Positions 546 to 44,215 of a stretch of DNA of 64,000 bases are shown here, piece by piece. The stretch's first letter is position 1, and each line of letters starts with the position of its first letter. The stretch comes from Diphasiastrum complanatum (lineage: Eukaryota; Streptophyta; Lycopodiopsida; Lycopodiales; Lycopodiaceae). Where the stretch lies: contig CM055092.1 of the NCBI GenBank assembly GCA_029204225.1, forward strand, positions 65,446,923 to 65,510,922. The letters run 5' to 3'. Under the pieces are notes generated by a model. The model worked only from the letters and a program-made list of their open reading frames with translations, was not told the DNA's origin and did no database searches. The position numbers were made by a program, and so were the translations under genes.

Positions 546-3500
546 CGCTAGTCTTTGTATATATACAAAGTAGGTAACCGCCCTTGGTGTTGGTAGGTAG
601 ATCTACTCAAACACTGGAGAAGCTATGAAGTTCAACCTAGAAGATGACATGGTGAAAAAACCCTAGGATGGCAACACTGGTAGGTGCAAATGCTCAAAAC
701 TGGAGCTACTATGTGTGGTTAGGTGACTTTCTTTTTCTTACTATGTACTAAAACATACTCAGCTAAATTTGAACACGAACTCACCTTAACTCGAACCTAG
801 TTTGAGTTCCTATCTTCAATAAACTCATCTCGATAAGCCTTGACTCGACTTAACAAGACTCAAGTTTGAACTCGAACCCGAACTCGGCCTAGATTCGAGT
901 ACTCAAATTATGTCTATCCAATAAAGCATATGCCAGAATAAAATGTGGGTATTATTCAACATAATCAATCACAATTTGGCAAGTGTTTTGAAACGTGAAA
1001 ACTCGAACTTAGAAGTTTGTTGCTCTACCCAACCAAGAAGGTTTTGACACGACAAAAATTGACAATAGTCGTAAAATTATGGCTTCCCATGTGTTTAGGT
1101 TTTATGGGTGACTTTCTTTTTCTTACAATGTACTAAAACATTATGTGAGTACAATTTGAAATTGAAGAGCCTCAACTCGAACCAGATTCGAGTTGAGAAT
1201 ACTTCACTTTGACCTTAATTTATTGCAAATATCAGATCTTCCTCAATTTAACTCATTTACATGTGTACTATGTAATAAAACATACTTCTCGAGCTCGTTC
1301 TTGAGCTCACCTCAACTCGAACCTGGTTCGAGATCTTGTCTTAATAAACTCAACATGACAAGGCTTGAGTGACTCAACAAAACTGCATCTCAAAATAGGA
1401 ATTGAACTCAAACTTGATCTCCACTTGAACAAAATTCGAGTCCTCAACTTCAGATTGCTATGAGTTATTGTCTTTCTTCACACCCAACTCGAGCCTGGCT
1501 CGAGTTAGCAAGACTTCAGTTGGCAAGAACTCGAACTCAACTCACCTCCACTTTAATTCGTGTTCAATAAAGTAAACCCTACAAGACTAAAATGAACAAG
1601 AATCTATCAACTCATCTCGAACCTTGAATAATATTTCACTTGAAATTATAATGAATATGAATCAATCTGAACCAAAGCTTGAACTCGAACCAGGTTTGAG
1701 TTGAGAAATCTCAACTTGAATCTAATTTTATGATATCTTGATTTGCATGAACTTGAATTGGAATTGGACTCCAAACTACATCTAAACTTCACCTTGAAAA
1801 AGAAACTTCACCTGAAATTTTAATGAATATGAATCAACCTGAACCAATCTAATTTTGATATAATCTCTGTGGTCAAATGGATTTGCTAGCACACACATAT
1901 GGTAGTAATGTTGGTAGGTAGATCTACTCAAACACTGGAGAAGCTATAATGATACAAAAAATACTCATCAAACAAACTGAGAAGTTCAATTTAGAAGATT
2001 ACATGGTGAAGAAACCCTAGGATGGCAACACTGGTAGGTGCAAATGCTCAAAACTGGAGCTACTATGATATGAAAACTAACCTATAAAGAAAACTCAAAA
2101 GGTAAACGAGATGTACAATAGGTGCATGACCATGTTGAAAACTTCTTTTTCTATCATCAAATTGGGTAAGTGTAGATATCTCAATTCAAATGTGGTTTCT
2201 GAACAAATAAGCTCAAACTATGTAGGTGCAATTTGAAATTGAAAATCCTCAACTCGAACCAGGTTTGAGTTGAGAAACTTTCACTTCGACATTTATTTTA
2301 ATGGCAAAAATTTTATCAAAATAAATTTAAGTCATTAACATGTGTACTATGTGTAAAACATACTCAGCTGAGCTTGAACAAAATGTCACCTTAATCAATC
2401 ATAATTCGGCAAGTGTTGTGAAACTTGACAACTCGAACCTAGAGGGTTGTTGCATAACCCAACTGAGAAGGTTTTGACTCGATGAAATTTGACACTAGTC
2501 ATAAAATATTGTGCCATCCATTATTTGAACATGAACTCAACTTAACTCGAACCCGGTTCGAGTTCCTATCTTCAATAAACTCATCTCGACAAGCCTTGAC
2601 TCGACTTAACTGAACTCGACCTAGATTCAAGTACTCAAATTATGTCAATCCAAAAAAGCATATGCCACAATAAAATGCAGGTATTATTCAACATAATCAA
2701 TCACAATTTGGCTACGAAGTTTGTTGCTCTACCCAACTGAGAAGGTTTTGACACGACAAAAATTGACAATAGTCATAAAATTATGGCTCCCCTTGTGTTT
2801 AGGTTTTATGGGTGACTTTTTTTTTTCTTACAATGTACTAAAACACATATTCGAGTTGAGAATACTTCACTTTGACTTTAATTTATTGCAAATATCAGAT
2901 CTTTATCAATTTAACTCATTTCCATGTGTACTATGCAATAAAGCATACTCGGCTGTACTCGAACTTGTTCTCGAGCTCACCTCAACTCGAACCTGGTTCG
3001 AGTTCTTGTCTCAATAAACTCAACATGACAAGACTTGAGTGACTCAACAAAACTGCATCTCGAAATAGGAATCAAACTCAAACTTGATCTCCACTTGAAC
3101 AAGACTCGAGTCCTCAACTTCAGATTGCTATGAGTTATTGTCTTTCTTCACACCCAACTCAAGCCTGGCTCGAGTTGGCAAGAATCACCTCCACTTTAAT
3201 TTGAGTTCAATATAGTAAACCCTACAAGACTAAATTGAACAAGAATCTATCAACTCAACTTGAACCTTGTTCATCAATAAACCTAGACTTTCATCCCGTT
3301 TAGTCTATAGTTCAGCTATTGTGGGGTCTAGCTTGAACCCAAACCAGGTTCGAGTTGAGAAATCTCAACTTCACTCTAATTTTGTGATATCTTGATCATG
3401 AAGTTGAACTGGAATTGGACTTCAAATGAAATCAAAGCTTCACCTTGAAGAAGAAACTTCACTTGAAATTATATTTAATATAAATCAACCCGAACCAATC

Positions 3501-3960
3501 TATTCCTGATATATTTTCTGTAGTCAAATTAGGTAAGTGTATATTGTTATGAGTTATTGTCTTTCTTCACACCCTACTCTGGCCTGACTCAAGTTGGCAA
3601 GAACTCGAACTCAGCTCAGCTCACCTCAAATCCACCTTAATTCGAGTTCAATAGAGTAAACCCTACAGGACTAAACTGAACGAGAATCTATCATCCACTC
3701 AACTCGAACCTTGTTCATCAATCAACCTAGACTTTCATCCCATTTAATCTATAGTTCAGATATTGTGGGGTGAGCTTGAACTCAAACCAGGTTTGAGTTG
3801 AGAAATCTCAACTTCAATCTAATTTCATGATATACTGATCATGATCTTGAATTGGAATTGAACTAAAAACTAAATCTAAACTTCACATTGAAGAAGAAAC
3901 TTCACCTGAAATTTTAATGAATATGAGTCAACCTTAGACAAATTAGATGACTGTAGATTG
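545..3960. repeat. Complex repeat block rich in CTCGAACC/GGTTCGAG palindromes
   Basis: No credible gene lies in these 3.4 kb. Segments repeat with indels: 585-715 recurs at 1,905-2,065, 1,063-1,600 recurs near 2,766-3,240, and 3,121-3,320 recurs near 3,547-3,760. Within them an 8-bp inverted repeat of the form CTCGAACC-N-GGTTCGAG, exact or degenerate, recurs about every 150-400 bp (for example near 1,188, 1,317, 1,487, 1,688, 2,253, 2,547, 2,987, 3,163, 3,341 and 3,780). The origin is unknown: non-coding interior of a retroelement or a degenerate satellite are both possible. Confidence 0.7.
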
Positions 3961-5830
3961 CTATGAGTTCTTTTTAAATAAGTGTAGATTGCTATAATCA
4001 TGAACTTGAACTGGAATTGGACACCTGATATCTGTTTGGATGGCCTTTTCTGATATTACTAATGCTGGCTCATATGTTTGCGTCTCCTGATCTTGTCCTT
4101 GTATAGGTTCTTCCGCATCAGAGATCTGCATTTGGCTTGATTGGAATCTGGCCTCTTCTAGTTCTTCCTTCAGCTTCTCATAGGCAATCATCTGCGACTG
4201 TAGATATTGCATCTGGAAGGTCTGGATCATCCGCTCCTAGATTCTCTTTCACGCTACTGGATCAATTTGGTACCTGCCATGAAATACGCAGGCACCGAGT
4301 GTGACTTTGGCACTAATTCACCAGAGTATTGCCTCTTTGACCTGTTTTTTGTATATCTGATTGTCTTTCTTTAGCATCTCTACAGAATTTTGTAGTTGGG
4401 CAATGGACTCCTGAGCACTACTGAGTTCATTGTTCAGTTTCACATTGCTACTTTGAAGAGTGGCTCTTGCTCATCTTTCTTCCTGCAAGGAAGCCTGCAG
4501 GGTCTGAAGTTGTTGTTTGAGAAGGATGTTCTCATTTTCGAAAGCGTTGGACTGCTCCTGCATCTCTTCCAACACTTTAAGTGTGGCATCTTGTCTTCCT
4601 TTTGCTTCTTCCAGCTCTGTCTCTTTCCTGCTCAGCTCCGCATTGGCTGATTTGAGCTCCTCATTTGTATAGGCTAGTTGAGTCTTAGTCTCACTCAGCT
4701 CTGCATCTGTTTGGGTGAGGTCTGTTGGGACTCTTTCATACTTGGACCCCAGCTTTTTGGATACCTTTTCCAAGCTAGAGGTGTTGTATAGCTGCCCGAG
4801 TATTCGGCAGTAGTGTTCCAAAAACCTGTTGATATAACTCGACATCGAGGATTGGTTCCTTGACGTCGCTTTCGCTGCCCTGCTGGTCCTCAGAAAGCTG
4901 CTCTACTCCTTGTGGTTCTGGTTCTTGTGGTATTTCAGCCTGATTTTGCTCTTGATCAGCAATGTTCTCTGCCTCTTCTTCCACGTCCTTATTTCCTTCT
5001 GGGCTGGTCAATGGTGTATACTGGGATGATGGCGAAGACATCCTCACCGAGCTTCCTTGACTTGATGATGATGTTGTGGCTGCTGCGGCGGTTGTCTTTG
5101 ATGTCTGCATTTGGGATTCTGCCTCAATTGATGGCGCTAGCCCTGGTAATACTGGTGCAGTCCTGATATCCTCCTGCAATGTCAGCACACCTGCATGCAT
5201 GCATAAGATGCCCATCTGTTGACCCAGTCTGGAGAACTGATTTACTTTTATTAATTTACAGAATTGCTTAAAAGCAATCCGTCCGAAGGCAATCTGCTCT
5301 CCATTTAAGGCTCTCAACAGGTATCCCATATTGGTATTTGAGATTGTGTACTCTTGCTCCGGTAGAAAGATAGAAGCAAGAGTAAATTGAACGAAGCTCT
5401 TGAGATTGGGGTCTCTAATGTAAGAGAGTTTGTATCCCTGTTTCTCAAGATAAGCTCCTTCTTGAAAAACTTCGCTCTCCGCAATGAAATCTGGTTTGGT
5501 AACTGGCATGCTGCCGTCCATAGGCAATCCTAAGGCACGACAATAAAACCCCTCTGTGATTATAATCTCTTGATTGCGGACAATTGTGGAAATATGTCCT
5601 TCCTCTATTTCGCCCAAGTTGCGGATCAACTCATAACAAAGATCAGTAAGAATAATTGATGGATTGAATTGAAGAAGACCTTCAATTCGCGCGCGAACAG
5701 CTAGTGGTTGTAAGATTGGTAGCACTGGCTTTGGGTGTGTCTTGAATACGATCGCCATAGTGCTTGCAAATGTAAACGCGCGATGGCAGACGAGAGCTTG
5801 ATCGCAACAATTTGCAATTTCAGAGAGCAA
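3961..5830 (-). pseudogene. Retroelement-associated third ORF: plant-transposon-protein-like N-terminus plus long coiled coil
   Basis: The main open frame (5,830-4,775) probably starts at the internal methionine of MAIVFKTHP. Its first about 230 residues are globular. The order of short motifs (TIVRNQEIIITE, ALGLP, a PEQ segment, then a GIL.MHAGV segment) recalls the putative plant transposon protein domain found beside Athila/Tat-type gypsy pol genes. A Ser/Thr-rich then acidic Glu/Gln-rich linker follows. After a frameshift near 4,840 the frame 4,845-4,471 gives a strong heptad coiled coil; an in-frame stop near 4,468 is followed by more coiled coil, and 4,230-3,961 gives a last helical piece. 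It lies downstream of the minus-strand integrase, where Athila/Tat elements carry an additional or env-like ORF. I see no membrane segment, so I do not call it an envelope. Broken as read. Confidence 0.5.
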
Positions 5831-6325
5831 GAGTGATGGAAAATGGTAGCGACAACAATTGAAGTGTTTGAGGTTTTAGGCGTATTGATGATATTTCGAC
5901 AGATTGGACTACTATTAAATGAAAACATGTCCTTCATTTTGAAGGTACATACTAAATAATAAAGTGTCTAGTCCAAAAAACAAAAATAAATAAATAAAAA
6001 AATGCAGGAATGCTTCTCTTGGTAAGCTTATTTGTCCCTTCGTTAAAATGTGAAAAATGCAAAGGTGTCAGAAGGTAAAATCCCGAAAAATGTGAAGGTA
6101 AGTGTCACAATTTCCGTATTGGTGAACTCACTAAATACACCATATTCCAATATAGTGTCGGGTTTTTCGCAAAATATAAATGTAGTGAAGGTCTCGGCTT
6201 TTTCGCAATACAAACAATTGTAGCATGCTTTGGCATTTTCGCAAAAAATGTAAACTTCGGTAAGAAAAAAAAAATAAAAAAAATAATAATAATAATGGCC
6301 TTAAAAAACTGATGTATCGGACATT
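5831..6325. other. Spacer between gypsy integrase and the downstream ORF
   Basis: About 0.5 kb of A/T-rich sequence without coding signal. Short degenerate repeats of the type GGNTTTTTCGCAA occur at about 6,163, 6,200 and 6,230 on the plus strand. They may be remnants of a tandem array in the element's pol-to-ORF3 spacer. No promoter or terminator can be assigned. Confidence 0.5.
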
Positions 6326-8071
6326 AGTCATAGTAGCGCTTCACCCTTGAACCATTTACTCGAGTGTCAAGTAAATGTCCTTGGAGATCAGCTAACTGAA
6401 GTGATCCATTATTAAAAACTTCTATAACTTTATACGGTCCCATCCATCTGACATGTAATTTTCCAGAAAACAACATGTGTCTGTTATCATACAGAAGCAC
6501 ATAGTCCCCTTGTTTAATTTTTATTTTCTTAATGGATTGATCAAATTTTTTTTTTTTTTTACTCTGAACTCATTCAGTCTCGATTAATGAAAGACGACGA
6601 TCCTCTTCCAATTGCATCAAAGAAATCATCCGCTCCCGGAGACTATCGTGTTCATCCATTCGCTCTTCATTACTAATGTGAAACGTCGGAACTTCGAATT
6701 CTATTGGTAGTATGGGATGCATTCGATACACAAGATAATATGGAGTCTGCCTAGTTGTAATCTTTTCAGCAGTTCTATATGCCCATAAGACAGATGGTAA
6801 CTTCTGATCCCAATCAGAAAAATGTGTTTCCATTACTTTATTCAAAATTTTAAATAGAATTCCATTTGACCGCTCCGTAAGCCCATTTGCTTTTGGATTA
6901 TATGGAGTGGTTTGGCGATGTGTAATAGAAAATATGACAACATGGCTTCAATGGTCTGATTAAGGAAATGGATTTTCCTATTGCTAACGAGTTCTAAGGG
7001 ACAACCATATCGCATTATAATGTTTTGGAATAAAAACTTTGCTACAGTCTTAGTATCGTTCTTAATTGTGGCTTCGGCCTCTACCATCTTGGTAGCATAG
7101 TCCGTGGCAACGAGTATGTAATGACGACGAGTTTTACATGTGGTCGGTTTGATAGGTCCTACAAAATCTACCCCCCACTTCTCAAAAGGTGCTAAGGGGA
7201 TAATTGGAGTAAGTGGCCAATGTGTTGCAAAGCTGGGTTTCCCCATCCTCTGGCATGCATCACATTTTTTCATGAAAATTTTAACATCTCTATAGACGGT
7301 AGGCCACAAAAATTTAGTATTAAAAAAAAATTTTGCAGTGTTTTTAAGAGCATAATGACCCCCCGAATCTTCTTCATGTAATGCACTTATTACAATGGTC
7401 GTCTCAGTTCGTTCTAAACATCGACGGAGACTATCGTCAGCTCCTAATTTATACAATATATTATTTACAATAGTGTAAGATCCTACCTTAGAAAGAAAAA
7501 CAGTTTTTTGCTGTTTATTAGAATGTTTAGGATATATCTGGTCCTGTAAAAAATTAATAACGTCCCTATAAATTGATGTTTCTGATTGAATACTCATTAT
7601 ATGTTCATCTAGAAATTCATCAAAAATAGGTTCTAATTGGTTTTTTGTTTGGAGGCGGGATATGTAATCAGCATTTTGATGATCCTTGCCTCTTCTTAAT
7701 TCTACTTCATAATGAAACTCATCTAATAATAATACACATCTAGCTATTCTACCCGAAAGATCAGGTTTATTCACTAAATGTTTTAATGCGTAGTGATCTA
7801 CATGAAAAACAAAAGGGTATCCTAAAAGGTAATGTCTAAATTTCTTTACTGAATAAATCATCCCTAATGCTTCTCGCTCTGTAGCGGAATAATTCTTTTC
7901 TGATGCAGCAAGGTGCCTTCCTGCATAGTAAATTGGATAATCTATATTTTGGTCATCTTTCTGACTAAGAACCACACCTATCGCAAACGACGATGTGTCT
8001 ACATATACATGGAACTTTTTAGCCCAATTTGGAGGTCTAACCCTAGTGGCTTCTGCTAATGACTGTTTCAA
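6326..8071 (-). pseudogene. Ty3/gypsy RNase H and integrase (Athila/Tat-like), frameshifted
   Basis: The open frame 8,071-6,842 starts with RNase H: acidic residues are visible at VDTSS (about residue 25), ATERE (about 66), HVDHY (about 92) and NADYIS (about 135). Integrase follows, with an H-H-C-C zinc finger ending in KKCDACQRMGK and the core starting VDFVGP. A frameshift near 6,950 moves the C-terminal core (TTPYNPKANGLTER, with the catalytic Glu) into another frame that continues at 6,845-6,570. The C-terminal beta-barrel (GDYVLLYD, WMGPYKV, VNGSRVKRYY) ends near 6,326 after another break at the T-run around 6,550. The VNG.R.K.Y ending without a chromodomain points to the non-chromovirus branch. 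The expected second catalytic Asp is Asn (SNRKIHF), so this copy should be catalytically dead. Confidence 0.9.
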
Positions 8072-8125
8072 TTTATCAAAAGCTTTCTGATGGTCTTGTG
8101 TCCAACGGTACCCAACAAATTTTTT

Positions 8126-9013
8126 CTAATAACTTGTTAAAGGAGTTACTATTATAGCACAATCTTTAATTATCCTCCGATAGTAACCTACATGACCTAG
8201 AAAACCCCTAAGCTCTCTTAAATTGGTTGGTTCTAATAATTCTAAAATCATTTTTATTTTTTCAATGTCGGCTTGTATACCATCCTTTGAAATTTTATGT
8301 CCTAAAAGGATTCCTTCCCTCATCCCAAAGTAAGACTTAGCTGGATGCAGTTTAAGAGATGTCTCTTGACATCTTCTCAATGTTTTCTCTAATGCATCTA
8401 AATGGTTTTTAGTTGATAAATAGACACAAAAGTCATCCATAAAAATTTCTAAAAACTTTCTTAAATTTTTTTGAAAAATATTCGTCATCATACGTTGGAA
8501 TGTGGCAGGTGCATTACAAAGACCAAAGGGCATTCGCGTATATGTGTACGTCCCCCAATCAGTGGTGAAAGTTGTTTTGGATCTATCTTCCTCTTTCATA
8601 AAACCTTGGTTATAACCTGAGAATCCATCTAAAAAACTATAACGTTCATGACCAGCTACTTGGTCAAGAATGGTATCTATATACGGCAAAGGATGATAAT
8701 CCTTTGCTGTAGCAGCATTTAGTTTCCTAAAATCCTGACAAACTCTAATCTTGCCCGTCTTCTTCTTAGGTACTATAACTATTGGTGATACCCACTCACT
8801 ACTTAGAACATGATATATAATACCCACTCTAAGACATCTATCTAATTCGTCTTTTACTAATAAGGAGTACTTTGGATTCAATCTATATTGACGTTGTCTA
8901 ACAGGTATTGTTCCTTGAATGAGATCTATTCTATGTTCGTCCCAATTAACTAGTATTCCTATTAAATCATCCATTGACCAAGCAAACACATTTTGGTATT
9001 TTTGAAGAAGCAA
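8126..9013 (-). pseudogene. Ty3/gypsy reverse transcriptase domain
   Basis: This open stretch covers nearly a full Ty3-type RT domain. Visible motifs in order are SPIVIVPKK, VCQDFRKLN, SFLDGFSGY (first catalytic Asp, about residue 129), MPFGLCNAPATFQ, the active-site FMDDF at about residues 191-195, and LGHKIS near the thumb. It continues, after a short break at about 8,070-8,125, into RNase H. It is part of the same minus-strand pol as the protease at 9,235-9,660. The RT catalytic residues look intact, unlike the integrase. The first residue given is only where the frame opens, since RT is cleaved from a polyprotein. Confidence 0.93.
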
Positions 9014-9234
9014 TATATACTCTTCACGTTCTTGGTTCGATTGATGTCTATAGATTCAAAGTCTTACTTTTATTAATTTTTATTTCTACATAATATGTTT
9101 TATCTACCATCCCCTCGGTCAGACTTGCTCTGGTTCCACCCAGAACTGTCTTGACTCGGATGTTATCGGTATTTCTTCTTCCTCATCAATCTCATAACAT
9201 TCTATGAAATTGATCCATGATTCAGCATGTCTAG

Positions 9235-9660
9235 CTAACTGCTCACCCATCTCAAAAGGTGATCCCCTATTGGACTGGCTGTGAGAATGCTTGGAAAAAA
9301 TATTTGTTTGGTAGACCAATTTATAATAGCATCTGCTTGATATAACCATGGTCTTCCAAATAATATCAAATAAAGTGGTGTATCTATTGGATCTATGACA
9401 AGAAAATTCATAACAAACGTCTTTGTCTCTATAATTACGTTAATACCTCTTAGCTCACCTATTGGTATACATTTAGTTGCGTCCGCTAAATGGATTTTGT
9501 GATAAGTGATAGGCTGTATCTGGTTCTCTAATCCTAATTCTTTAACCATTATTTTCATTACTAGATTGATACTAGATCCTGAGTCTATTAGTATTCTATT
9601 TATAGTCTGATCTCCTATGATCGCACTAATCTCTGGAACTCCATCAATCTCCTCTATCTA
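9235..9660 (-). pseudogene. Ty3/gypsy aspartic protease region of pol
   Basis: The minus-strand translation shows ILIDSGSSINLV (active-site D-S-G), then the flap-side segment HLADATKCIPIG and the C-terminal FGRPWLYQADAIINW, the usual pattern of a plant Ty3/gypsy pepsin-like retroviral protease. It sits directly upstream of the RT on the same strand. Stops just upstream and in the linker to RT (about 9,014-9,118) mean the polyprotein is no longer continuous. A related protease fragment is at 15,687-16,125. Confidence 0.85.
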
Positions 9661-9894
9661 CATATTCTACTCTATTACTGTATGCAGGTATACTTAGTGT
9701 GACTACCTTCTCCCCTTTCTCAGTCCCTACTGACTGAAGCCATCTTCCTCCGAAGTATAGCTCGAGGAAGATGTAGGTGTCTCGCCTTCGTACTTATCTT
9801 TTTCCCATGATATGGAAGTTCTTTTATGACTTTTTCCTGTCAGTGTCTCCGTCTGGTCTCTGAAGGTAATCTCCTTTTTCTTCCAATGGGTTAT

Positions 9895-10020
9895 AACATC
9901 GGCCTGATAGAGCCATGGTTGTCCTAATACACTTTATATGACGATTGTCTCGTAGTTTTTAACATCGACCTGATAGAGCCATGGTCGTCCTAATACACTT
10001 TTTATGACAATTGTCTCAGA
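9895..10020. repeat. 66-bp tandem duplication of a protease-derived segment
   Basis: Bases 9,895-9,960 and 9,961-10,020 repeat the same segment with a few changes (both contain CCTGATAGAGCCATGG and CCTAATACACTTT). On the minus strand each copy encodes a VLG(R/Q)PWLYQ(V/A)DV motif, the C-terminal strand of a gypsy protease. A second, non-collinear protease end is therefore embedded upstream of the main protease. Confidence 0.7.
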
Positions 10021-10392
10021 TTCAGTGAAGTAAAAAAGATCCGATATATCTGATATTGTCAAAAAGGAATTATTATCTATATTATAAGAAGGCAAAGTGA
10101 TCAAAGATTTATCAGAAGCAGAAAGGGTAGTGGGTGTTCTAGGGCCTATAAACATAGCCCTATTTCGAGCAGGATCAAAATCTGAACAATCATCTAAATT
10201 AACACTCGTATCAATAAAAAAAGTATCTATATCTACAATCTTTGACTTTTCAAACTTTGTACCACTAGAAGAAGCTGCTGCAAAAGTGAAGGGGACAACC
10301 TCAGAATCGTCAAAAATATTTAACAAAAGCAGACTGAAAATCAACAAATCTACATTTTGTATTATGAATTGGGCACTCATCTACAGACTGGA

Positions 10393-10692
10393 AATCATTA
10401 TGTAACTTGGTAAAGACTCTGTCAAGCTTAGCTTTATAGATATGCTTGTCGAGTGCCACTAGGTCCTGATAATGAATCATGTCCTTATTCTGAGATCTGA
10501 ATAACGGAGTACTGAGTAGGGACTTAAATATGAGATATATCTTAGAAAATGTCTCCACACCAGGGCCCTCATTTATAGAAGGTATGATAAACAGGAAAGG
10601 AGAAAAAAGAGATTTCAAATACTCCAACCTATCAGTAATACCAAATTCATGAAAAAAAAGAAAGCAAACTAGAATCAAAATTAGACATTTTA
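10393..10692 (-). pseudogene. Divergent minus-strand ORF upstream of the gypsy protease (gag-like position, unrecognised)
   Basis: An ATG at about 10,692 (MSNFDS) opens a minus-strand frame that runs into a stop within a T-run. In the neighbouring frame the reading continues as HEFGITDRLEYLKSLF to VFTKLHND near 10,395. The same protein-like sequence is encoded by copy 2 (16,127-16,425), where it joins directly to a gypsy protease (DSGSSVNIM). It lies where gag should be and is led by a minus-strand TATA box at 11,001-11,007. I do not recognise a domain and see no zinc knuckle. Conservation of the reading between the two copies suggests it once coded. Confidence 0.45.
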
Positions 10693-10720
10693 AACAAAAA
10701 CAACAGAACAAAAGTTTCAA

Positions 10721-10951
10721 ATATCGCTCTCAGGCGCAAACCGCAGGTCAGGCAAGCACATCAAGGCAACATGCGCTCGAGAGCAATATTACAAGTTGGG
10801 GTATCGGATCCGAGCACAGAAACATAGAGCACAAAAGAAAAGAGATGAAAAGCGCGTTTGAATGCGATACCAGACAAGGCAGTATCAGTTCCAGGCGCAA
10901 AATAGTCAACAGAGGGTAATGAGAGCAAGTGGCACACTTGAAATCGATATC
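10721..10951 (-). promoter_or_regulatory. Minus-side leader array: six alternately inverted 17-20 bp motifs
   Basis: Read on the plus strand, six related motifs lie at 10,721-10,737, 10,773-10,790, 10,801-10,817, 10,852-10,871, 10,882-10,898 and 10,932-10,951. On the minus strand the TATA-proximal one reads GATATCGATTTCAAGTGTGC. The following ones alternate between this orientation and its reverse complement, giving potential hairpins. All lie within about 280 bp downstream of the minus-strand TATA box, so they should be in the 5' leader of the divergent minus transcript. Confidence 0.65.
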
Positions 10952-11000
10952 CGGCCAAGAAATCATAAATCTGCGTGAAAATCCGAGCCGAAAAAGACCT

Positions 11001-11007
11001 ATTTATA
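11001..11007 (-). promoter_or_regulatory. TATA box of the minus-strand divergent transcript
   Basis: The minus strand reads TATAAATAGG here, a near-perfect plant TATA box about 310 bp upstream of the minus ATG at 10,692. In copy 2 the corresponding site (16,721-16,730) has decayed to TGTAAATAGG. Confidence 0.6.
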
Positions 11008-11259
11008 AAAAAAAAAATTGCACATGTGGAGGAGTGGCAAAGGAATACGTGTCGACTTGTGATTCGTCAAAATAAATAGAATGATTGATTTGACATCTGT
11101 CACATGCGAGAATAACATGCGTCGAGGACGGATTCATGCACGTGTCCCAGCCCACGTCACCTCATAATTGGGTCATCATTGTTAGTACGGACATACCACA
11201 CAGACTAATAATCTAACGACATGTGTCTTCGCCGTCTTTTCACACATGCAAAAATTTTG
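11008..11259. promoter_or_regulatory. Core of the divergent promoter with ACGT-core (G-box/ABRE-like) sites
   Basis: Between the two TATA boxes there are no ORFs but repeated ACGT cores: ATACGTGTCGACT near 11,045, GCACGTGTCCCAGCCCACGTC near 11,138-11,158 and ACATGTGTC near 11,220. The second copy (16,745-16,970) keeps them as ACACGTGTC, CCCACGTGG and ACACGTGTC. ACGTGTC is the core bound by plant bZIP/ABRE factors; binding here is inference. Confidence 0.5.
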
Positions 11260-11269
11260 TATATATAAG
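11260..11269 (+). promoter_or_regulatory. TATA box of the plus-strand H3-like transcript
   Basis: TATATATAAG lies about 310 bp upstream of the H3-like ATG at 11,574, mirroring the spacing on the other side. The second copy keeps the same box at 16,972-16,980. Confidence 0.65.
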
Positions 11270-11317
11270 TCCTCGGAATTTTGATTTTTTTTGGCAAATT
11301 TTTTGCTTTTTGCTCCC

Positions 11318-11493
11318 GATATCGCTTTCAAGCGCACTCTTTCACGTTCAAGCTTCCGCCCTCTCACAGTGCGCTCGAGTCCAATACCGCTGGTAGTGCA
11401 ATATTGCTTTCGAGCGCGCATCTGTTTCCATAAAATAATCTGTGTAGATCTTGCACTCGAAACCGATATTCAGTTTGGTATCGATCTCTAGCG
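11318..11493 (+). promoter_or_regulatory. Plus-side leader array: five alternately inverted 17-22 bp motifs
   Basis: Motifs lie at 11,318-11,337 (GATATCGCTTTCAAGCGCAC), 11,369-11,388 (inverted), 11,398-11,419 (direct), 11,453-11,470 (inverted) and 11,477-11,493 (direct, degenerate). They are the same motif family as at 10,721-10,951, starting about 50 bp downstream of the TATA box and alternating in orientation in the same order. They should be transcribed as hairpin-forming leader of the H3-like mRNA. Confidence 0.65.
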
Positions 11494-11573
11494 TCCTTTT
11501 ATCGCAATTTTTTTTGTTTTCAACTACTTTTCTTTTGTTCAAACTTTTCTTTGTTAATCTTCTTCTTCTGAGA

Positions 11574-12111
11574 ATGATGGCCAGGACCAAATCCACTGCC
11601 CGTGCTATAACCACTGTACAGCCATCCCATTCCCATGTTCCCCCTGGTACTGGCCGTAGGCATGGCAGGAAGCAGGTATGGCTGAAGGAGATCAGAAAAC
11701 TCCAAAGATTAACCGAATTGTTGATCCCTAGAGCTCCTTTCGGCCGATCTGTACGGAATGTCATTCTGTCACTTGGGCTGAATGTTCATTTCGCCGTGAT
11801 AGCCATGCAGGCCTTACAGGGTGCTGCAGAAGAATTTTTGTCCCAGTTTTGAAGATACTTGTCTTTTGGCAGTGCATGGTAAGCGTGTCACCATCATGCC
11901 AAAGGATTTCGTCATTCTCAAAAGGCTTCAAGACAAATATTCTGGTCTACATGTTGATAATGCCAGCACCTCCAGAGACCTGCCTCTGGATAGAACCGAC
12001 TTGCCTACTGCCTCTAGGAGGAAGAGAAAGCAGGCTATCCCCAAGAAGGCTGGATCTCGAAGGCCCTTTCTCCTATACGTATCCCGACCAAGAGACCCTG
12101 TGTCTTCTTGA
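11574..12111 (+). pseudogene. Divergent histone H3 / CENH3-like ORF (frameshifted)
   Basis: From 11,574 (a doubled ATG; the second gives MARTKSTARAITT) the frame encodes an H3-type tail with the ARTK start intact and Lys9 replaced by Ala. A basic linker follows, then the histone fold: LKEIRKLQRLTELLIP for the alpha-N region, PFGRSVRNV for alpha-1, MQALQGAAEEFL for alpha-2. At the TTTT run near 11,846-11,849 the frame breaks and continues in the next frame with EDTCLLAVHGKRVTIMPKDF and KRLQDKY (loop 2 and alpha-3), then a Lys/Arg-rich tail. LKEIR, LLIP, F.R.VR and KDF recall plant CENH3, while loop 1 has canonical H3 length. It is either a CENH3-like or a fast-evolving H3 variant. A partial second copy starts at 17,287 with an in-frame indel. 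Confidence 0.8.
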
Positions 12112-12689
12112 GCTCCGAGTCAGATGCAGGAGAATCTGACTCAGATCGAAAATCTTCAACCCTTCCTCCTCCTATTATTCGTCCAACTCCTCAGCAGGTT
12201 TCATCACCAAAAGTGTTGATTACCCAAGAGGAGCTAGACAAAATAATAGAGAAATCTGTAAATATTGTTTCCACTTCTGTTTTTGCTCCTGTACATAACC
12301 TTTTTATGAGAATTCCATACGATCTAGCCTTGGTTTATTTTGATTCTGACCATTATAATCAATACGAGGCCTACCTAGCTAATAAAATTGATCTTCTCAG
12401 CAACTTTTTTGATTTTCTTCTTCCAGATACACGTACAAGTTTTAGATTAGGTCCCAAATTTTGTGCCGAGCTGAAAGATAAAACCTCAAAAATTTCAGAT
12501 GTAATAGTAGAAGCCGGAGTTTCTTTTTTGTAGAATATGATTAGTTTCGATTCCCATGGTATAGTTTTTGTTGTTAGTCCATTTTTCATGGGAGCGGTAA
12601 AGGCGAAAGAAGCCAATTTTGAGAAGGCTGTCTATTTTATCGAATGCAGTCCTGTGGCGAAATTCTATTTGATTCCATATGAAAATAAA
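12108..12689 (+). pseudogene. Unrecognised C-terminal extension of the H3-like ORF
   Basis: Directly after the histone-fold region, in another frame, an open stretch starts with an acidic Ser-rich run (SSESDAGESDSD) and continues with an alpha-helical-looking segment (EELDKIIEKSVNIV, FDSDHYNQYEAYLANK, FDFLLPDTRTSF). A TAG after a T-run at 12,531 interrupts it, and the same frame resumes as MISFDSHGIVFVV to YLIPYENK, ending near 12,689. I do not recognise a family. The frame changes sit at T-rich runs, so sequencing or assembly error is a realistic alternative to decay. Confidence 0.4.
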
Positions 12690-13310
12690 TAAGGATTGCT
12701 CTTTTGTTTTTGTTGCTTTAATATGGATTGTTGCATACTTCATTGCTTTAATAAGGAAGGAATTTTTTGATGAATATGAATTTATTGATATTTGTATTTT
12801 GGTTGTTGCAGTCAGCATTGGAGCCTGAACATTATTCTTGTAAAGATAAATGAGGGAATTTCAAGTTTTCTATGCGTAAAATTAAACTCAGCTGCAAATA
12901 CACATAGAGAATTTGAATCTCTACTTCATGATGTCGTTCGAGAAATATCGACAACGGCAACTTCAATTGGAGAGATAATCATTTGATCTCTCATGGTATA
13001 TTCAATTTATCTCTGATATGCATGTATTCTTTTTTTAATTCAAATGTATCGTCATAGCATAAATAAAATTTCTATAATAATATTATAAATTTTTGTTCTA
13101 TATATGCAGTATGTACAACAAAAAGACGCTTTTAGTTGTGCATAGTTAGTCCTATACAATACAAAGCTATTTTTTGAGTGGAATAATTTACAAGTGGTTG
13201 TAAATATTGAAAAGCTAATATCAAGTTCATTTGTAGTTCCTTTCATTCTAATTCATATTTTTTTACTATCATTGTTTGTAATTTGCTGATTCTCATGTTT
13301 CGTGATGACA
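12690..13310 (+). other. AT-rich stretch, possibly intronic, between unknown ORFs
   Basis: The interval contains a TTGTTGCAG site at about 12,802-12,810 followed by LEPEHYS-like coding, and a GATGACAG site near 13,303-13,310 followed by LEPYTPDDV coding. Both look like 3' splice acceptors preceding related exons. Otherwise it is A/T-rich without clear genes. Confidence 0.35.
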
Positions 13311-13668
13311 GTTCACTCTTGAGCCATATACTCCTGATGATGTATATAGATTTTGGCAAGAGTTGATCAGAACCTATGCCCAGTACGGTGTAAGCGTTGC
13401 ACCCGGAATCGAAGGCCTTCAAAAGGAAGTTGCTCCTACCTTAACAGCCTTTCAGGTTGCTCAGGGTGTAGATCTTATTTTATATGATCAAAAAGGAATA
13501 AAAGTCCTTCCTAATACAGAGGAAGGCAATTTTATAGCAGATATTCCTCTTGTCTTAAAAGGCATTGAGGCCCTTCCCGAAACAGAGGAGAGAGAGATTA
13601 GAGAAGGAGCTGTTGCCTTATCAGTTCCTAATACTGATAAAGAAAATAAAGAAAAATTGATTGAATAG
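13311..13668 (+). CDS. Unrecognised open stretch, possible last exon
   Basis: An open frame of about 118 codons from the possible acceptor at 13,310 to the TAG at 13,666-13,668. It encodes FTLEPYTPDDVYRFWQEL, a helix-rich middle and repeats of a short motif (KVLPNTEEG, EALPETEER, LSVPNTDKE). It has no known domain that I can identify. It may be the 3' exon of the H3-like transcription unit or an unrelated fragment. The L-P-N/E-T-E/D-E triplet repeat is the only clear internal structure. Confidence 0.35.
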
Positions 13669-13897
13669 AGATTTATTTGTAGATAGAGAGACATAAAAAA
13701 AAAAAGATACAATTATTTTACATGTAAACAACCTGTTTATGGGTTTTTTTATTGATATCAATATAGATTCTTACAATCAGGTTGTGTCCATAGTGTAATA
13801 CTAGAATGCAATTTTCTATATTGATAAAAAGACATGATGATTGGCGACAGCCTTTGATTTTATGGCCAGTCCTCTTATAGTATATGCAGAATAGTTT

Positions 13898-15925: not shown

Positions 15926-16125
15926 TTGGTGATCTTCTAGTTGCATCGGCTAACCTTAAATGTCTTAAAGTGGGTGCTATTCTATGATGAATGTCTAATT
16001 CATATGCCATTTCTTCAGTCATTATATTTACACTAGATCCGGAATCTATGGGTACATTATCTGAGATGCAGCCATTAATTACTATCTAAATCTCTGGTTG
16101 GCCTTCATCACCGTAATTAACATCA
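15687..16125 (-). pseudogene. Ty3/gypsy protease fragment (copy 2)
   Basis: The minus-strand translation from about 16,125 to 15,930 shows GDEGQPEI, then IDSGSSVNIM (active-site D-S-G) and LRLADATRRSPIG, like the protease at 9,235-9,660. Its upstream side joins directly to the gag-like ORF of the divergent promoter copy 2. Downstream it is broken at about 15,930 against the plus-strand copia gag. Confidence 0.75.
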
Positions 16126-17355
16126 TTATGTAACTTGGTAAACACTTTGTCAAGCTTAGCTTTATAGATATGCTTGTCGAGTGCCACTAGGTACTAATAA
16201 TGAATCATGTCCTTATTCTGAGATCTGAATAACGGAGTACTGAGCAGGGACTTAAATCTGAGATATATCTCAGAAAATGACTCCACACCAGTGCCCTCAA
16301 TTATAGAAGGTATGATAAATAAGAAAAGAGCAAAAAGAGATTTGAAATACTCCAACCTATCAATGATACCAAATTCATGAAAAAAAAGAAAGCAAACTAG
16401 AATCGAGACATTCTAAACAAAAACAACAGAACTAACGTTTCAAATATCGCTCTTAGGTGCAAACCGCAGGTCAAGCAAGTACATCAAGGCAACATGCGCT
16501 CAAGAGCGATATTACAAGTTGGGGTATCGGATTCGAGTGTAGAAACATAGAGCACAAAAGAAAAGAGATGAAAAGCGTGCTTGAATGCGATACCAGACGA
16601 GGCAGTATCGATTCCAGATGCAAAATAGTTAACGGAGGGTAATGAGAGTAAGTGGCACGCTTGAAATTGATATTCAGCCAAGAAATCGTAAATTTGCATG
16701 AAAATTCGAGCCAAAAAAGACCTATTTACAAAAAAAATTTGCATATGTGGAGGAGTGGCGAAGGAACACGTGTCGACTTGTGATTTGTCAAAATAAATGC
16801 GTCGACATCTGTCACGTGCGAGAATAACATGCATCGAGGACGGATTCGTGCATGTGTCCCAGCCCACGTGGCCTCATAATTTGGTCATCATTGTTAGTAC
16901 GGACATACCAAGCGGACTAATAATCTGACGACACGTGTCTTCGCCGTCTTTTCACGCGTGCAAAAATTTCGTATATATAAGTCCTCAAAATTTTCATTTT
17001 TTTCGTAAAATTTTCGCTTTTTGCTCCCGATATCGCTTTCAAGCACGCTCTTTCACTGTTCAAGCTTCCGCCCTCTCACAGTGCGCTCGAGTCCGATACC
17101 GCTGGTAGTGCAATATCGCTTTCAAGCGCGCATCTCTTTTCATAAAATAATCTGTGTAGATCTTGCACTCGAAACTGATATTCAGTTATGGTATCGATCT
17201 CTAGCGTCCTTTTATCGCAAATTATTTTGTTATCAACCGCTTTTCTTTTGTTCAAACTTTTTTTTGTTAAGCTTCTTCTTCTGAGAATGATAGCCAGGAC
17301 CAAATCCACTGCCCGTGCCATAACCACTTCTCGTGTTCCCCCTGGTGCTGGCCGT
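16125..17355. mobile_element. Second copy of the divergent promoter and H3-like N-terminus
   Basis: It aligns with 10,393-11,653 throughout: the gag-like minus ORF (16,127-16,425), minus leader motifs (about 16,441-16,671), inter-TATA region, plus TATA (16,972), plus leader motifs (about 17,027-17,210) and H3-like start at 17,287. The H3-like frame reads MIARTKSTARAITTSR; relative to copy 1 it carries a 15-nt in-frame length difference. It ends at 17,354, where a copia LTR (TGTGAGAAATTGGC) has inserted. Confidence 0.75.
17287..17355 (+). pseudogene. Truncated H3-like ORF (copy 2)
   Basis: About 23 codons of the H3-like tail with the ARTK start and a PPGAGR linker, identical in plan to 11,574-11,653. 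The rest is missing because the copia LTR at 17,355 interrupts it and the displaced half is not in this window. Confidence 0.7.
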
Positions 17356-18178: not shown

Positions 18179-18536
18179 TGGTATCAGAGCCTACCTAAGG
18201 TTGCCATGCATTTTGATCCATTTAAGTGAAAACTATTCATCAATCTTGAGCTAGAAATTGTCAAGGTCCATTTTCCTTGCTATCTTGGTCAATTTTGGAT
18301 CAAAAGAGATCAAAAGGACATTGATTGGGTCTGACTTGGTACTGTACGGAATCAAGTGCTCAGACACGTGTGAGGAACATCCGGTTTCAGTTTGGAAGTT
18401 CTCTCTCATGCTTGATCCATTTATCTTGCTTGATAGCTTGTTTTGAAACTATTTTTGTCTAGTTTCGATGCAATCAGTTCCATTCCATTTGGTTGAGCCA
18501 ATCAAAAGTTATAAGCTTTTGAAGAGGGTTAGGTAA

Positions 18537-19237
18537 TGTGAAAGTACTGTACTTTAGGACCATAAATGGATCTACAAAAGATCCACAAGAGTGATTGGAT
18601 GCTTGCTTAACAATCTATCAAAAAACTAGACACAAAAAAGTTGATCTAGATTGGCAATTTGACAAACAACAAGCATTAACAATCAAAAGCATTGATAAAC
18701 ATTGAAATCCGAGCCCACACGTGTGTACTACAGGCTGTAGTACGGCCTTCAACCTGAGAAACAAGTAGAAATTGATTTGGTTTCATTTGGATCACAAAAA
18801 CTCAATGTACATAGTGAACTAGCTTGAGATTGCCAATGAGCTCCAAAAATTTTCTATCTTCTCACTATGGAGAGAGGGAATACATAGCAAATTCGACTTC
18901 CTTCTTGAAGTTAGGTGGATTTCCAGCATGTAATAAGGAAGTTAACTCACTCTCCTTGACCTAAAATGAAACCCTAGTCTATTTCCTAGAGTTATGCTTG
19001 GTAGGTAGCTAGTTGGTCAAATTTTCACCTTAAACTTAGGTGTAGGTCCTATAAAGTAGGGATGACCACCAAATAGACATGACCAACTCTCTTGACTTGA
19101 CCTAACCTACATTAGGATGGGTTTCCCATGTGGCATCATGGCCTCACATGTGTGGGACCCACTTGTGTACACAATTTACACTATTCTACATGGTTTTTGA
19201 TCAAGCTAGATTTGCCAATTTTTGACAATTCTTCACA
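18537..19237 (-). repeat. 3' LTR of the nested copia element
   Basis: On the plus strand it begins TGTGAAAGTACTG and ends TTCTTCACA. It matches 22,404-23,104 nearly base for base. It contains CCACACGTGTGTACTACAGG followed by GTACGG, a motif shared with other LTRs here. Confidence 0.92.
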
Positions 19238-19441
19238 CTCCTCCTCAAATTTAGCTTGATCTATTTACAACTCTCTTGATAGATGAATGAGAGCTTTTAG
19301 AAGTGTCTAAAAAATCCAGCTACAAACAAGGAACTTTTGAGACTCCGATAGAGAATGATGTCCATGAAGGATCTTTCGCCACCTCTTAGAGGATCCCTTA
19401 CAAGATGTTCCATAAATGTGTCATGTAGCACACTCCAAAAA

Positions 19442-21598
19442 CTATACATCATGCCAAGCCATGGATTCCAAGGCATTTTGTGCACTTGAAGATACATCAA
19501 TTAAAATATTAAGTGCATAAATAATGTTGCCAAAGACAACTTGCCTTGCTTGATCCATATGATTGAGCCTTGATGGCTCCATCTTGATACTCAAGATTCT
19601 TCTTGGAGTCCTCGGGTCTTGAGCTTGATCCTCCACTTGACTTGACTCCAAAACATCAATGAATTGAATAAGGTGTTGATCCAAAGGTGCTTCTTCAAGT
19701 TTACAAATCTTCCACTCTTGAAAGATCACATTTCCACCATTGACAAATTCTTTGGTCGAAAACAAGTAGATTCTACAATCTCTACTTGAAGAGCAAAACA
19801 CTACCATTATTCCTATCATTGAAATAGGATAATCTTTGGTCCTTACATTGGAATGATCATGCACAAAGCATGTGAACACAAAGATTTCCAAAGCAAATGA
19901 TGTTTCATCTTTTATGACTCTATTCAAACTATTACAAAAATAGTTATCCAATGAAATTGCTTTATCAACAACAAATGTAGATTTCAAAACAGCCCATTTC
20001 ATTGTCTTGTCATACAAAGTAATAAACACCATGAATCTTAAAGGTAAGAAACAAGTCACCTCATGTCTACTACTACTTTCCAAAAAGTATTCAAAGATAG
20101 TAGACTCTCCAATGCTCACCACCCTTGCAAGATGCACACTTGAATGGACAATTTGCATGCAATTCGATGACTCGGCCATTGTCGTTGAGGACTCCCTTGG
20201 AACTCTCATGCTTTGAGGTTGATCCTCAAGATCTTCCTCCTTTTGATGCTCCTCCTCAATGCAAGCAAGATCACACTTTGCCAAGATCTCCTCTTGAGTG
20301 ATCTCCTCCTTTGCCAAGCTCATTCTTTCAAAAGCAACACTAGCTTCCAACTCAAACAATCTTCCATGCTTAAATCCCTTTGCAATGCAAACATCATTCT
20401 TCAAGATGAAACAAACACCATGCTTAAAGTGGACATCCAAACCACTTTCTAAGAGTAAACCAACACTAAGCATATTCTTGGTGATTGATGGTACATAAAG
20501 GACATTTTCTAGATCCATGCATTTTGAGGATTCTAGACACAAAGAGATGGTGCCAACACCATCTATCCTACACTCTTCATCATTTGCAGTAAAGACAAAC
20601 TTTTTAGCATCATTGAATGAGTGTAAGGTTGAGAAAAAGTCCTTTTCACAAGACATGTGGGAGCTAGCCCCACTGTCAATCCACCAATTGTCTCTTGAAT
20701 TGCTATTGCTTGTTGGTGAGGATGTAGATGCCATCAAGAATACATCTACTTCATCCTCCTCCTCCTCCTTTGCAAGGTTTCCTTGTATGTCCTCCTCCAC
20801 TTGTGCTCTTAGCCTCTTGTAGCATTCAGATGCATAATGCCCCTTCTTTCCACAAAAGAAGCATTTTTGCTTTGACTTGTCCTTTGAGCTTGATGCATCA
20901 TCCTCTTCTTTGGCCTCCTTTGGATGCTTCTTCTTTCCATTGGTCTTCTTTTTGCCCTTGAATGAGAAATTGGCTTTCTCATCACCATCTTGCAATGACA
21001 AGGAACTCATCCTAGATTTTGCATGGAGCATCCTACACTCTTCAGCCACTAATACACTGTGAAATTTTTCTATAGTCGACAAAGTGTCTTGGATGGCAAA
21101 ACTTTGGACCAAATTTGCAAAGTCATCTCCTAGACCATTAAGGACAATTTGTACAAGCTCTCCATCATGAATCTTCTCTCCAATGGAAGCCAACTCCCTA
21201 TTTAGAGACTTGATTCTGAGTACATAATCATGTGCACTCTCCTCACTTCTTCTCATGCTTTGCAAAATTCGATTTCTAAGCATAAGAACTCTAGAAGTGT
21301 TGCTAGACTCATAGATTGATTTTAAAGACTCCCAAGCCTCTTTAGCATTAGTACAAGCTGATACTTCTCTCAACAAATCATTGCTCACATTCATCTTCAC
21401 ACAATGAAGTGCAAGCCTAGATCTCTTCTTGTATCTAGCTAACTCCTGTGCACCTAGAGGTTCATCTTCATCTTCAATCAAGAACTCATAAAGGTCTTGG
21501 AGCACCAATAGTGACTCCATTCTAACCTTCCAAATAGCATAATTTGTAGAATTCAACCTCTCACTAGCTTCTAGAAGGTATGCTCCAGCAGATCCCAT
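19442..21598 (-). CDS. Copia gag-protease ORF with residual integrase C-terminus, one intact frame
   Basis: The start MGSAGAYLLEASERLNS at 21,598 lies eight codons inside the open frame that begins at 21,622 and fits the related gag start at 23,508. Domains (residues counted from 21,622): copia gag about 20-200 (WKVRME near 31), zinc knuckle CFFCGKKGHYASEC about 254-267, aspartic protease WWIDSGASSHM about 313-323 with LYVPSITKNMLSVG after it. Beyond about residue 400 the integrase core is gone, but its C-terminal strand pattern remains (DCRIYLFSTKEF, VIFQEW), then the acidic linker with RTPRRIL and EPSRL that normally precedes RT. The frame stays open over 726 codons across the deletion, which suggests the shortened protein was kept. 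It resembles the TR-GAG type of non-autonomous element. Confidence 0.9.
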   Translation of the reverse strand: MGSAGAYLLEASERLNSTNYAIWKVRMESLLVLQDLYEFLIEDEDEPLGAQELARYKKRSRLALHCVKMNVSNDLLREVSACTNAKEAWESLKSIYESSNTSRVLMLRNRILQSMRRSEESAHDYVLRIKSLNRELASIGEKIHDGELVQIVLNGLGDDFANLVQSFAIQDTLSTIEKFHSVLVAEECRMLHAKSRMSSLSLQDGDEKANFSFKGKKKTNGKKKHPKEAKEEDDASSSKDKSKQKCFFCGKKGHYASECYKRLRAQVEEDIQGNLAKEEEEDEVDVFLMASTSSPTSNSNSRDNWWIDSGASSHMSCEKDFFSTLHSFNDAKKFVFTANDEECRIDGVGTISLCLESSKCMDLENVLYVPSITKNMLSVGLLLESGLDVHFKHGVCFILKNDVCIAKGFKHGRLFELEASVAFERMSLAKEEITQEEILAKCDLACIEEEHQKEEDLEDQPQSMRVPRESSTTMAESSNCMQIVHSSVHLARVVSIGESTIFEYFLESSSRHEVTCFLPLRFMVFITLYDKTMKWAVLKSTFVVDKAISLDNYFCNSLNRVIKDETSFALEIFVFTCFVHDHSNVRTKDYPISMIGIMVVFCSSSRDCRIYLFSTKEFVNGGNVIFQEWKICKLEEAPLDQHLIQFIDVLESSQVEDQAQDPRTPRRILSIKMEPSRLNHMDQARQVVFGNIIYALNILIDVSSSAQNALESMAWHDV

Positions 21599-22390
21599 CT
21601 TACTAGTGACTTCTACAAACAAGAAATAGATTTGATTGACTTGAAACTCACAAAGGTCTCACACTTGCAGTGTTTCACTCAAATTTGATTTCTAATCCAA
21701 CAAATGGACTTATAATCACAGTTCTATCACTCCCTCACAAAGCTGGAATGAAGATAAGATGAAGTGAAAACTACTTTCAAACAAATCTTGCCAAGAAATG
21801 GATTTGATTGTCTCTAGAAACTCACTAAGGTCTCTCTCTTGTAGTTTTTCACTCAAATTAGATTTCTAATCCAACAAATGGACTTATAATCTCAGTTCTA
21901 GCACTCCCTCACAAAGTTGGAATGAAGATAAGATGATGTGAAATCTACTTACAATCAAATCTTGCCAATTTTGGCTATTTTTGGACAAAAAAATGACTTA
22001 ATCTCTTTCTTCTTTCTTGGTGTACTTTCAAGACCTGTTTTTAACCTTAATAGGACTTGAACTCAGCCTAGATTAATTAGATTCCATGAAACAAATTCAA
22101 ATCTAATCAATGACAAATGATCTTGGTAGATTATCCTAGGATCTCCGCCAAAAATTACACCAATAGCTCACAAATTGAATTTTTTTGGATCAAATGAATA
22201 CCATGCATTAAATGCAGGTTCAGAGGTGCCCACACATGTGGACAGTACGGATTTGGACCCCTACCAAGTTTGGGATCAAATCTCCTCACCAAAATCAAGA
22301 TTCTAGCTTGCCCTCTCAATACTAGGTTTTAGCACCAAAACTTGCTAAAAATGGATTTGCATTAGATCAATGGCTTATGCTCTTGTACTT

Positions 22391-22403
22391 GGCTCTGATA
22401 CCA
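22391..22403 (-). other. Primer-binding site of the nested copia element
   Basis: TGGTATCAGAGCC on the minus strand, immediately next to the 5' LTR end, complementary to the 3' end of initiator-Met tRNA. Confidence 0.9.
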
Positions 22404-42149: not shown

Positions 42150-42511
42150 CTGCATCATTTCCAATTAAAAAATGATCATTAGACTTTTACATTTCATACA
42201 AACATGGCAAAATAACGAGATAACTTTTAGTTGGGGGAATGCTCTCCCATCCTAGGAGGGCACTCCGCCCCGAGCAGGTGGAAGGCCCAAGGAGGGGACT
42301 CTTAGGGACCAAGGAAAGAGAATCTTTGTTTTGGAGAGATAATGCTAGTTTTCGAAGAGAGAATTATATTATAACAACGTTTTGAAATGATGGAGAGAGC
42401 AATCAAGGTGCTTATTCTGCCTCTCAAGATGCCTGTAGAACATATAATCTAAATCTGAGTAGATTTTCATGACTTTGGATGAATTTTGAGCATTACCTAG
42501 CGTGAAGATTT
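39343..42511. repeat. Segmental duplication, copy A side
   Basis: It is nearly collinear with 51,671-54,760 plus 57,435-57,769: desaturase exons 4-10, introns and flanks are shared. Relative to B it lacks the approximately 2.7-kb segment 54,760-57,435 (exons 1-3 and upstream region) and the 228-bp insertion at 51,827-52,054. Confidence 0.85.

Positions 42512-44020: not shown

Positions 44021-44123
<103 letters not shown>

Positions 44124-44212: not shown

Positions 44213-44215
<3 letters not shown>

Follow-up and report, generated by a model that had tools for sequence, protein, structure and literature searches.

The arrays of alternating 18-bp sites described here lie at a divergent promoter within a dispersed family of elements with common ends. 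Two genes leave this promoter in opposite directions, and the product of one of them is a histone H3 domain joined to a long C-terminal part. The regular geometry of the sites, the conservation of their motif and spacing, the mirror homology of the two promoters and the selection on the encoded proteins are seen when copies of the element are compared. We consider it probable that this divergent promoter is an internal part of a DNA transposon with several genes, terminal inverted repeats and no assigned superfamily, and that the arrays are operators for a sequence-specific protein, likely one encoded by the element. The window, i.e. the whole 64,000-nt stretch of Diphasiastrum complanatum DNA that was analysed, contains two partial copies of the element, A and B (Table 1). 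The original prediction had not placed the two opposite genes in a repetitive element; their promoter is internal to a multicopy transposon-like element and is not that of two host genes.

Table 1. Features of the element (window coordinates, except for the rows that name locus L041)
Feature	Position	Strand	Description
Copy A	10013..13845		damaged; minus gene, divergent promoter and H3-fusion gene; both outer parts and ends absent
Minus gene, 5' part	10013..10719	-	no known domain; related frames in L016, L021 and L041 begin MSNFES
Minus leader array, copy A	10720..10951	-	six alternating 18-bp units; gaps 35, 9, 36, 9, 35; unit starts and strands 10934-, 10881+, 10854-, 10800+, 10773-, 10720+
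TATA box, minus promoter	11001..11007	-	22/26 minus-type leaders have a TATA-like hexamer 54-60 bp ahead of unit 1
Core between TATA boxes	11008..11259		mirror homology between the halves; weak in copy A, clear in copy B and most of the others
TATA box, plus promoter	11260..11269	+	12/13 plus-type leaders have a TATA-like hexamer 54-60 bp ahead of unit 1
Plus leader array, copy A	11318..11494	+	five alternating 18-bp units; gaps 35, 11, 35, 6; unit starts and strands 11318+, 11371-, 11400+, 11453-, 11477+
H3-fusion gene, first coding part	11575..12690	+	broken in copy A
H3-fusion gene, likely last exon	13309..13668	+	119 aa; putative splice acceptor (CAG) ahead
Copy B	16122..17355		fragment of the element of copy A; has the divergent promoter with its two arrays and the beginning of each gene
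Minus array, copy B	16443..16674	-	gaps in transcript order 35, 9, 36, 9, 35
Plus array, copy B	17029..17207	+	gaps in transcript order 36, 11, 35, 7
L041 third gene	~415 to 3149		runs towards the minus gene; predicted limits
L041 minus gene	~4870 to 3296		opposite strand to the H3-fusion gene; predicted limits
L041 H3-fusion gene	~5771 to 7940		at least two exons; predicted exon limits

Arrays and mirrored promoters in the window

Copy A carries eleven 18-bp sites in two mirror-image arrays. All six minus-leader and five plus-leader units were found where they had been predicted, and the strands, checked unit by unit, alternate in both leaders from the same starting orientation. Sites that face each other are separated by a gap of 35-36 bp in 5/5 cases, and the remaining gaps are 9, 9, 11 and 6 bp. 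When 10700-11520 was searched with GATATCGCTTTCAAGCGC, 7 matches with at most 4 mismatches were obtained (mean 0.03 and maximum 1 in 60 dinucleotide shuffles) and 12 with at most 6 mismatches (mean 0.55 in the shuffles). In the rest of the window the motif scan finds arrays only in copy B (16443-17207), in agreement with the prediction; the remaining listed matches carry 5 or 6 mismatches. The consensus over the eleven units is approximately RRTATYG-N-WYYC-RAGCGC, in which TAT (positions 3-5) and C (position 12) are invariant and G at positions 7, 15 and 17 varies once. Identity between the motifs averages 0.69, and the long gaps resemble each other weakly (0.20-0.46, ungapped).

Both outward-facing TATA boxes are present, each with its array about 50 bp downstream as predicted, and this register is kept in other copies of the element. 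Specifically, 34 of 39 leaders, including those of both window cassettes, have a TATA-like hexamer 54-60 bp ahead of the first unit; one of the five leaders that lack it is the minus leader of copy B. The idea that one promoter-leader was duplicated in inverted orientation holds, based on the mirror likeness of the core promoters and on units that match in order between the leaders (units m5 and p3 differ at 1/18 bases, m1 and p1 at 3). Mirror likeness of the array-free core promoters is clear in copy B (z 6.4; 0/400 shuffles reach the score) and weak in copy A (z 1.9; 25/400), and unmirrored controls stay at chance level. For the 87-89-nt pieces before the first unit, at most 7/300 shuffles reach the mirror score in 7/9 copies; the two that fail are copy A of the window (94/300) and L041 (28/300). 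The inverted duplication is thus better visible in other copies than in copy A.

Element family and conservation of the arrays

The exact motif GATATCGNTTTCAAGCGC occurs 481 times in the genome of 1,744,706,496 bases, and the reversed-pattern control gives 0. A generic dispersed satellite had been set against the original prediction. The motif is dispersed, but the 20 sampled loci are one element family. The sample consists of twenty 10-kb stretches, all taken from contig C1 and together containing 24 of the 481 motif places; 19 of them match the element of the window directly and one (L023) does so through L009. Two of the stretches, L013 and L019, belong to one segmental duplication. Their near-identity was considered as a sign of a recent jump and this was rejected, since their common flank is 100% identical over 501 bp.

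Homology of copy A to other genomic copies starts at 10013 in eight loci and stops at 13835-13845 in eight, and the sampled loci match each other much further than they match the window. Copy B is 89.3% identical to 10394-11657. Comparison of copies revealed the ends of the element. They share CATTAGAGAAA as an inverted repeat, and the sequence that comes next is CTTAGAGCCC at the H3 end and ATATGGGCCC at the opposite end. The exact end pattern CATTAGAGAAAMTWWGRGCCC was found 1,496 times in the genome (control 0). L041 is a complete copy of 8.9 kb with both ends (103-8998) and three gene regions. Movement by a transposase is suggested by these ends and by the dispersal rather than by insertion footprints: in six end pairs (four, plus L020, plus L029/L030) a matching 3-bp flank (AGG) is seen only in L029/L030, and matching target flanks, the usual footprint of insertion, are absent in the other five. 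An A follows the right-hand end in 6/6 end pairs, whichever element end is there, and the left-hand end is preceded by varying bases; this may be chance. Two copies look rearranged. At L029 3901-8834, the H3-side end lies in reversed orientation between two inverted repeats that are 87% identical, which probably reflects an inversion there. In L009 (324-1770 and 1770-3986), the end part of the minus side runs opposite to the remainder of the copy.

A chain search for at least three units at allowed spacings in 21 loci (the 20 stretches and L041) found 47 arrays with 236 units, and 20 of the loci have at least one array. The number of detected arrays per stretch ranges from 0 to 4, and tandem promoter modules underlie the difference. 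A sixth plus-leader unit is present in L012 and L020, in the latter with 4 mismatches. If the spacing filter is removed, the same loci contain 221 units with at most 2 mismatches (reversed control 0). Neighbouring units within 120 bp form 169 pairs, 145 in opposite and 24 in the same orientation. Facing pairs are 53-54 bp apart in 81/87 cases and back-to-back pairs 25-29 bp apart in 58/58. Among the 24 pairs of like orientation, 12 have a distance of 80 bp, a spacing expected where an intervening unit has decayed. In the whole genome there are 379 exact facing pairs with a gap of 33-37 and 0 in the reversed-pattern control.

Across the sampled copies the motif and the spacing are kept and the spacer sequence drifts. 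Outside CpG-like sites, identity is 0.84 in the motif vs 0.69 in the spacer of 26 minus-type leaders and 0.86 vs 0.73 in 13 plus-type leaders. Between copies A and B the motif is unprotected: in the minus leader, motifs differ at 17/108 bases and spacers at 6/124, and in the plus leader at 5/90 and 3/87, respectively. As 80 of the 102 differences between A and B are transitions, 39 of them at CpG, we read the motif differences as probable CpG decay of methylated, silenced copies.

Retrotransposons are found next to the copies in the window. A broken Gypsy-type element at 4471-10017 (minus strand), with a tandemly duplicated protease, reverse transcriptase, RNase H, integrase and a downstream 366-aa frame, adjoins copy A and is separate from it. 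Both cassettes abut protease pieces in matching orientation, which had suggested that the adjoining Gypsy polyprotein might have its 5' part in the minus gene. This was rejected; homology of copy A ends at 10013, so the Gypsy parts are merely neighbours. Cassettes A and B were also considered as a pair of long terminal repeats and rejected as such, since in A the homology to other copies continues through the H3 gene to 13835-13845. An LTR retrotransposon would have long terminal repeats and gag-pol inside the common unit, but here the homology stops ahead of the adjoining Gypsy pol and the ends are short inverted repeats. Elsewhere in the window there are large diverged repeats beyond the Gypsy element (588-3934, with the pair 767-1878 / 2523-3529 at 79%) and a Copia-type element at 18536-23104, related sequence of which is present in L030. 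It is probably recent, as its terminal repeats (18536-19237 / 22403-23104) are 99.4% identical. Two direct copies that are 92-94% identical lie about 12.3-12.6 kb apart (39344-42205 and 51670-54762), and 43682-47707 holds repeated units about 760-935 bp apart with long perfect GA runs.

Genes of the element

The plus gene encodes a protein with a MARTKSTAR-like N terminus, an H3 domain that is about 44% identical to the canonical H3 of the genome and a long C-terminal part. The core histone fold (PF00125) scores above the curated cut-off of 26.4 in the window (40.8 bits, E 3e-10, 11448-11852), in L016 (58.6 bits) and in L041 (81.6 bits, E 7e-23). In copy A the gene is broken by a frame change after about 11850, another between 12018 and 12139 and a stop at 12531-12533. 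Longer open frames exist in L016 (343 aa) and L041 (282 aa), and the frame of the last exon is open also in L016, L026 and L041. Where canonical H3 has LIRKLPF, the fusion protein has LIPRAPF, which we take to be reminiscent of plant CENH3. In the PDB, the frame of the window hits CENP-A best and that of L016 hits H3. AlphaFold prediction of the C-terminal domain without an alignment gave a mean pLDDT of 47.4 and is not drawn on here.

There are other H3-like genes in this genome. A PF00125 search gave 6,325 first-look candidates, 150 of which were scored. None of the six non-canonical hits sampled is of the family of this element: five belong to a second repeated H3-like family and one is L053. 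The second family (L048-L052, at C11:4817000, C156:46900, C17:36125700, C8:36892000 and C5:63208500) has a proline-rich N terminus and the sequence LIPRAPFVRL and is about 46% identical to canonical H3. L053 (C22:33276000-33277100) has an open frame of 337 aa that resembles the 343-aa frame of L016 over nearly its full length (32% identity, E 6e-41), and the architecture of H3 plus C-terminal part is therefore old.

In deep comparisons the dN/dS ratios indicate that the H3-fusion gene is under purifying selection. More specifically, the first coding part compared with L041 gives 0.33-0.35 for L009, L010, L017 and L027 and higher values for nearer copies (0.48-0.67) and for L012 (0.66), with the synonymous rate saturated in L014; all such counts blend the phase of the active element with later decay. 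The last exon is less constrained (0.4-1.25). For the first part of the minus gene, dN/dS is 0.27-0.46 against L009, L010, L011, L012, L022 and L027, and for parts of the minus and third genes it ranges from 0.2 to 1.6, higher values being mostly those of close pairs. In the minus gene lower values appear only in deeper comparisons. Coding constraint of this gene cannot be argued from A vs B alone, where 8, 8 and 5 differences fall on the three codon positions, and that argument was rejected. The proteins of the minus and plus genes were also tried as duplicates of each other and rejected (best BLASTP E 0.04).

The third gene is a candidate transposase by elimination alone. No Pfam family is above cut-off in the tested pieces of the minus and third genes; for the third gene these are four pieces of L041 other than 2853-3149, and six from L016, L021 and L026. 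Weak Pfam hits in its pieces, several of coiled-coil type and bZIP among them in one piece, are all below cut-off, and a PDB search with one piece gave no match. None of the scanned protein pieces of the element has a Pfam DNA-binding domain above cut-off. An NCBIfam scan gave nothing above cut-off, searches of protein collections found no relatives, and scans of viral contigs found none.

Possible functions of the arrays

Alternating arrays inside leaders could act either as DNA or as RNA. The original prediction had left room for both, proposing a shared cis or leader-RNA control of the two opposite genes and similar hairpin series in both leaders. One cis arrangement does serve both genes, and the RNA side of the proposal fared poorly. 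Whole-leader folds barely beat shuffles (z -1.2, -1.8, -1.0, -1.9), and when 3' arms were permuted among copies, 13 of the 15 arm pairs showed no excess pairing, i.e. arms do not pair better within copies than between them. This, together with the conserved motif columns, favours DNA binding over RNA. It is quite unlikely that leader RNA folds into a hairpin series that governs translation, splicing or packaging of both transcripts. Alternating orientation would permit hairpins, and single stems do appear in predicted folds. Two arm pairs of the minus leader, 5-6 (z 4.1) and 2-3 (z 2.0), do pair more than permuted arms, an excess that related sequences can also yield. Complementarity is slightly higher between facing neighbours than in other arm pairs, 15.2 vs 14.7 of 18 in copy A and 14.2 vs 13.2-13.5 of 18 in copy B. 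On the other hand, back-to-back neighbours, which would form the tightest hairpins, fall below other pairs in complementarity (13.8 and 12.8 of 18), and the motif is kept as sequence. No RNA families or tRNA genes were found in the window.

If the sites act as DNA, the protein that binds them could be a host transcription factor exploited for tissue or stress expression, with no element protein involved. Plant transposons often rely on host factors, and the fixed distance of the array from the TATA box would suit such a factor. The site is 18 bp long with information over both halves and forms ladders of up to six, whereas usual single host-factor sites are shorter; we regard a host factor as unlikely. 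The sites could also serve transposition by binding a transposase or an accessory protein, like the subterminal repeats bound by TnpA in CACTA (En/Spm) elements, whose ends begin with CACTA and which make a 3-bp target duplication. The present element resembles these in having terminal inverted repeats and short sites in both orientations. It differs in that its ends read CATTAG (CATTAGAGAAA), a matching 3-bp flank is seen in 1/6 end pairs and Pfam recognises no transposase in the scanned third-gene pieces. Moreover, its arrays are internal, at the divergent promoter (in L041, 4.7 kb of the element lie on one side of them and 3.3 kb on the opposite side), and hold register with the TATA boxes, which makes a role in transposition highly improbable. 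Similarly, there is very little to be said for a neutral tandem repeat that arose by slippage and gene conversion, or for a source of small RNA, either without control function. Tandem promoter modules in several copies and the unprotected motifs between A and B speak for such a repeat, but a neutral repeat would drift equally, and here the motif is conserved, the spacer is not and the length of the spacer is fixed.

Operators for a sequence-specific protein thus remain the reading that we prefer, and certain observations count against it. The scanned protein pieces lack a recognised DNA-binding domain, five of the six end pairs lack matching flanks, two arm pairs of the minus leader exceed permutation and the motif is unprotected between A and B. 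In addition, the arrays lie inside what are probably the transcribed leaders, an unusual position for an enhancer. In the operator model each promoter would consist of a TATA box and a ladder of up to six alternating 18-bp sites that begins about 25 bp past the expected transcription start. A sequence-specific protein that recognises both halves of the site, most probably a product of the element itself, would line the ladder and occupy many sites together on the DNA. A spacing of 53 bp amounts to about 5 turns of DNA and one of 27 bp to about 2.5. Bound ladders near +25 of both transcripts would determine for both promoters how active or how silenced they are. The transcript starts, the binding, the identity of the binder and the outcome, be it anti-silencing or self-regulation, are what we infer from this arrangement.

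The H3-fusion protein, which would be under control of one of the promoters, suggests chromatin as a target and may act on the chromatin of the element itself. A more specific version is that the 18-bp ladders cause the H3-fusion protein to be assembled into, or kept at, the element's own chromatin. The element would then mark its own promoter as active and escape silencing by means of a nucleosome variant. We consider this quite unlikely. Compared with core histone H3, the encoded protein is alike in the histone fold and the N terminus; it differs in its low identity to the canonical form, the long C-terminal fusion and the repetitive element that carries it.

The closest known system is that of the VANDAL Mutator-like transposons of Arabidopsis, in which VANC proteins bind dense family motifs and lift silencing, and the motifs of VANC21 are short (YAGTATTAY) and arrayed in one orientation (PMC5735166, PMC10398659). 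The present element is similar in that a short motif is confined to one transposon family (481 motifs in the genome; the 20 stretches, with 24 of the 481 places, are one family) and is dense in noncoding parts of the element, and in that the copy number of units changes by tandem duplication (here, 0-4 arrays per stretch and tandem modules). The differences are the length of 18 bp, the alternation (145/169 neighbouring pairs are opposite, not in one orientation), the fixed spacing, the TATA register and the two mirrored leaders. No VANC-like protein was recognised here and an H3-fusion gene is present. By analogy, the element may work like the VANC/VANDAL anti-silencing system, a likeness and not a membership.

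Among the titles and abstract openings listed there was no description of a transposon-encoded histone, in a search whose scope excluded subscription journals and repeat databases. The main text of a review on gene capture by plant transposons (PMC13317346) does not contain the word 'histone'.

VANDAL elements are already known for transposon-specific motif arrays that recruit their own anti-silencing protein. In the present case the arrays alternate strictly in orientation and are tied to a pair of mirrored promoters, and the element also has an H3 domain that is kept under selection. Histone gene counts in such genomes need care, and the element offers a testable case for a transposon that would edit its own chromatin with an encoded histone.
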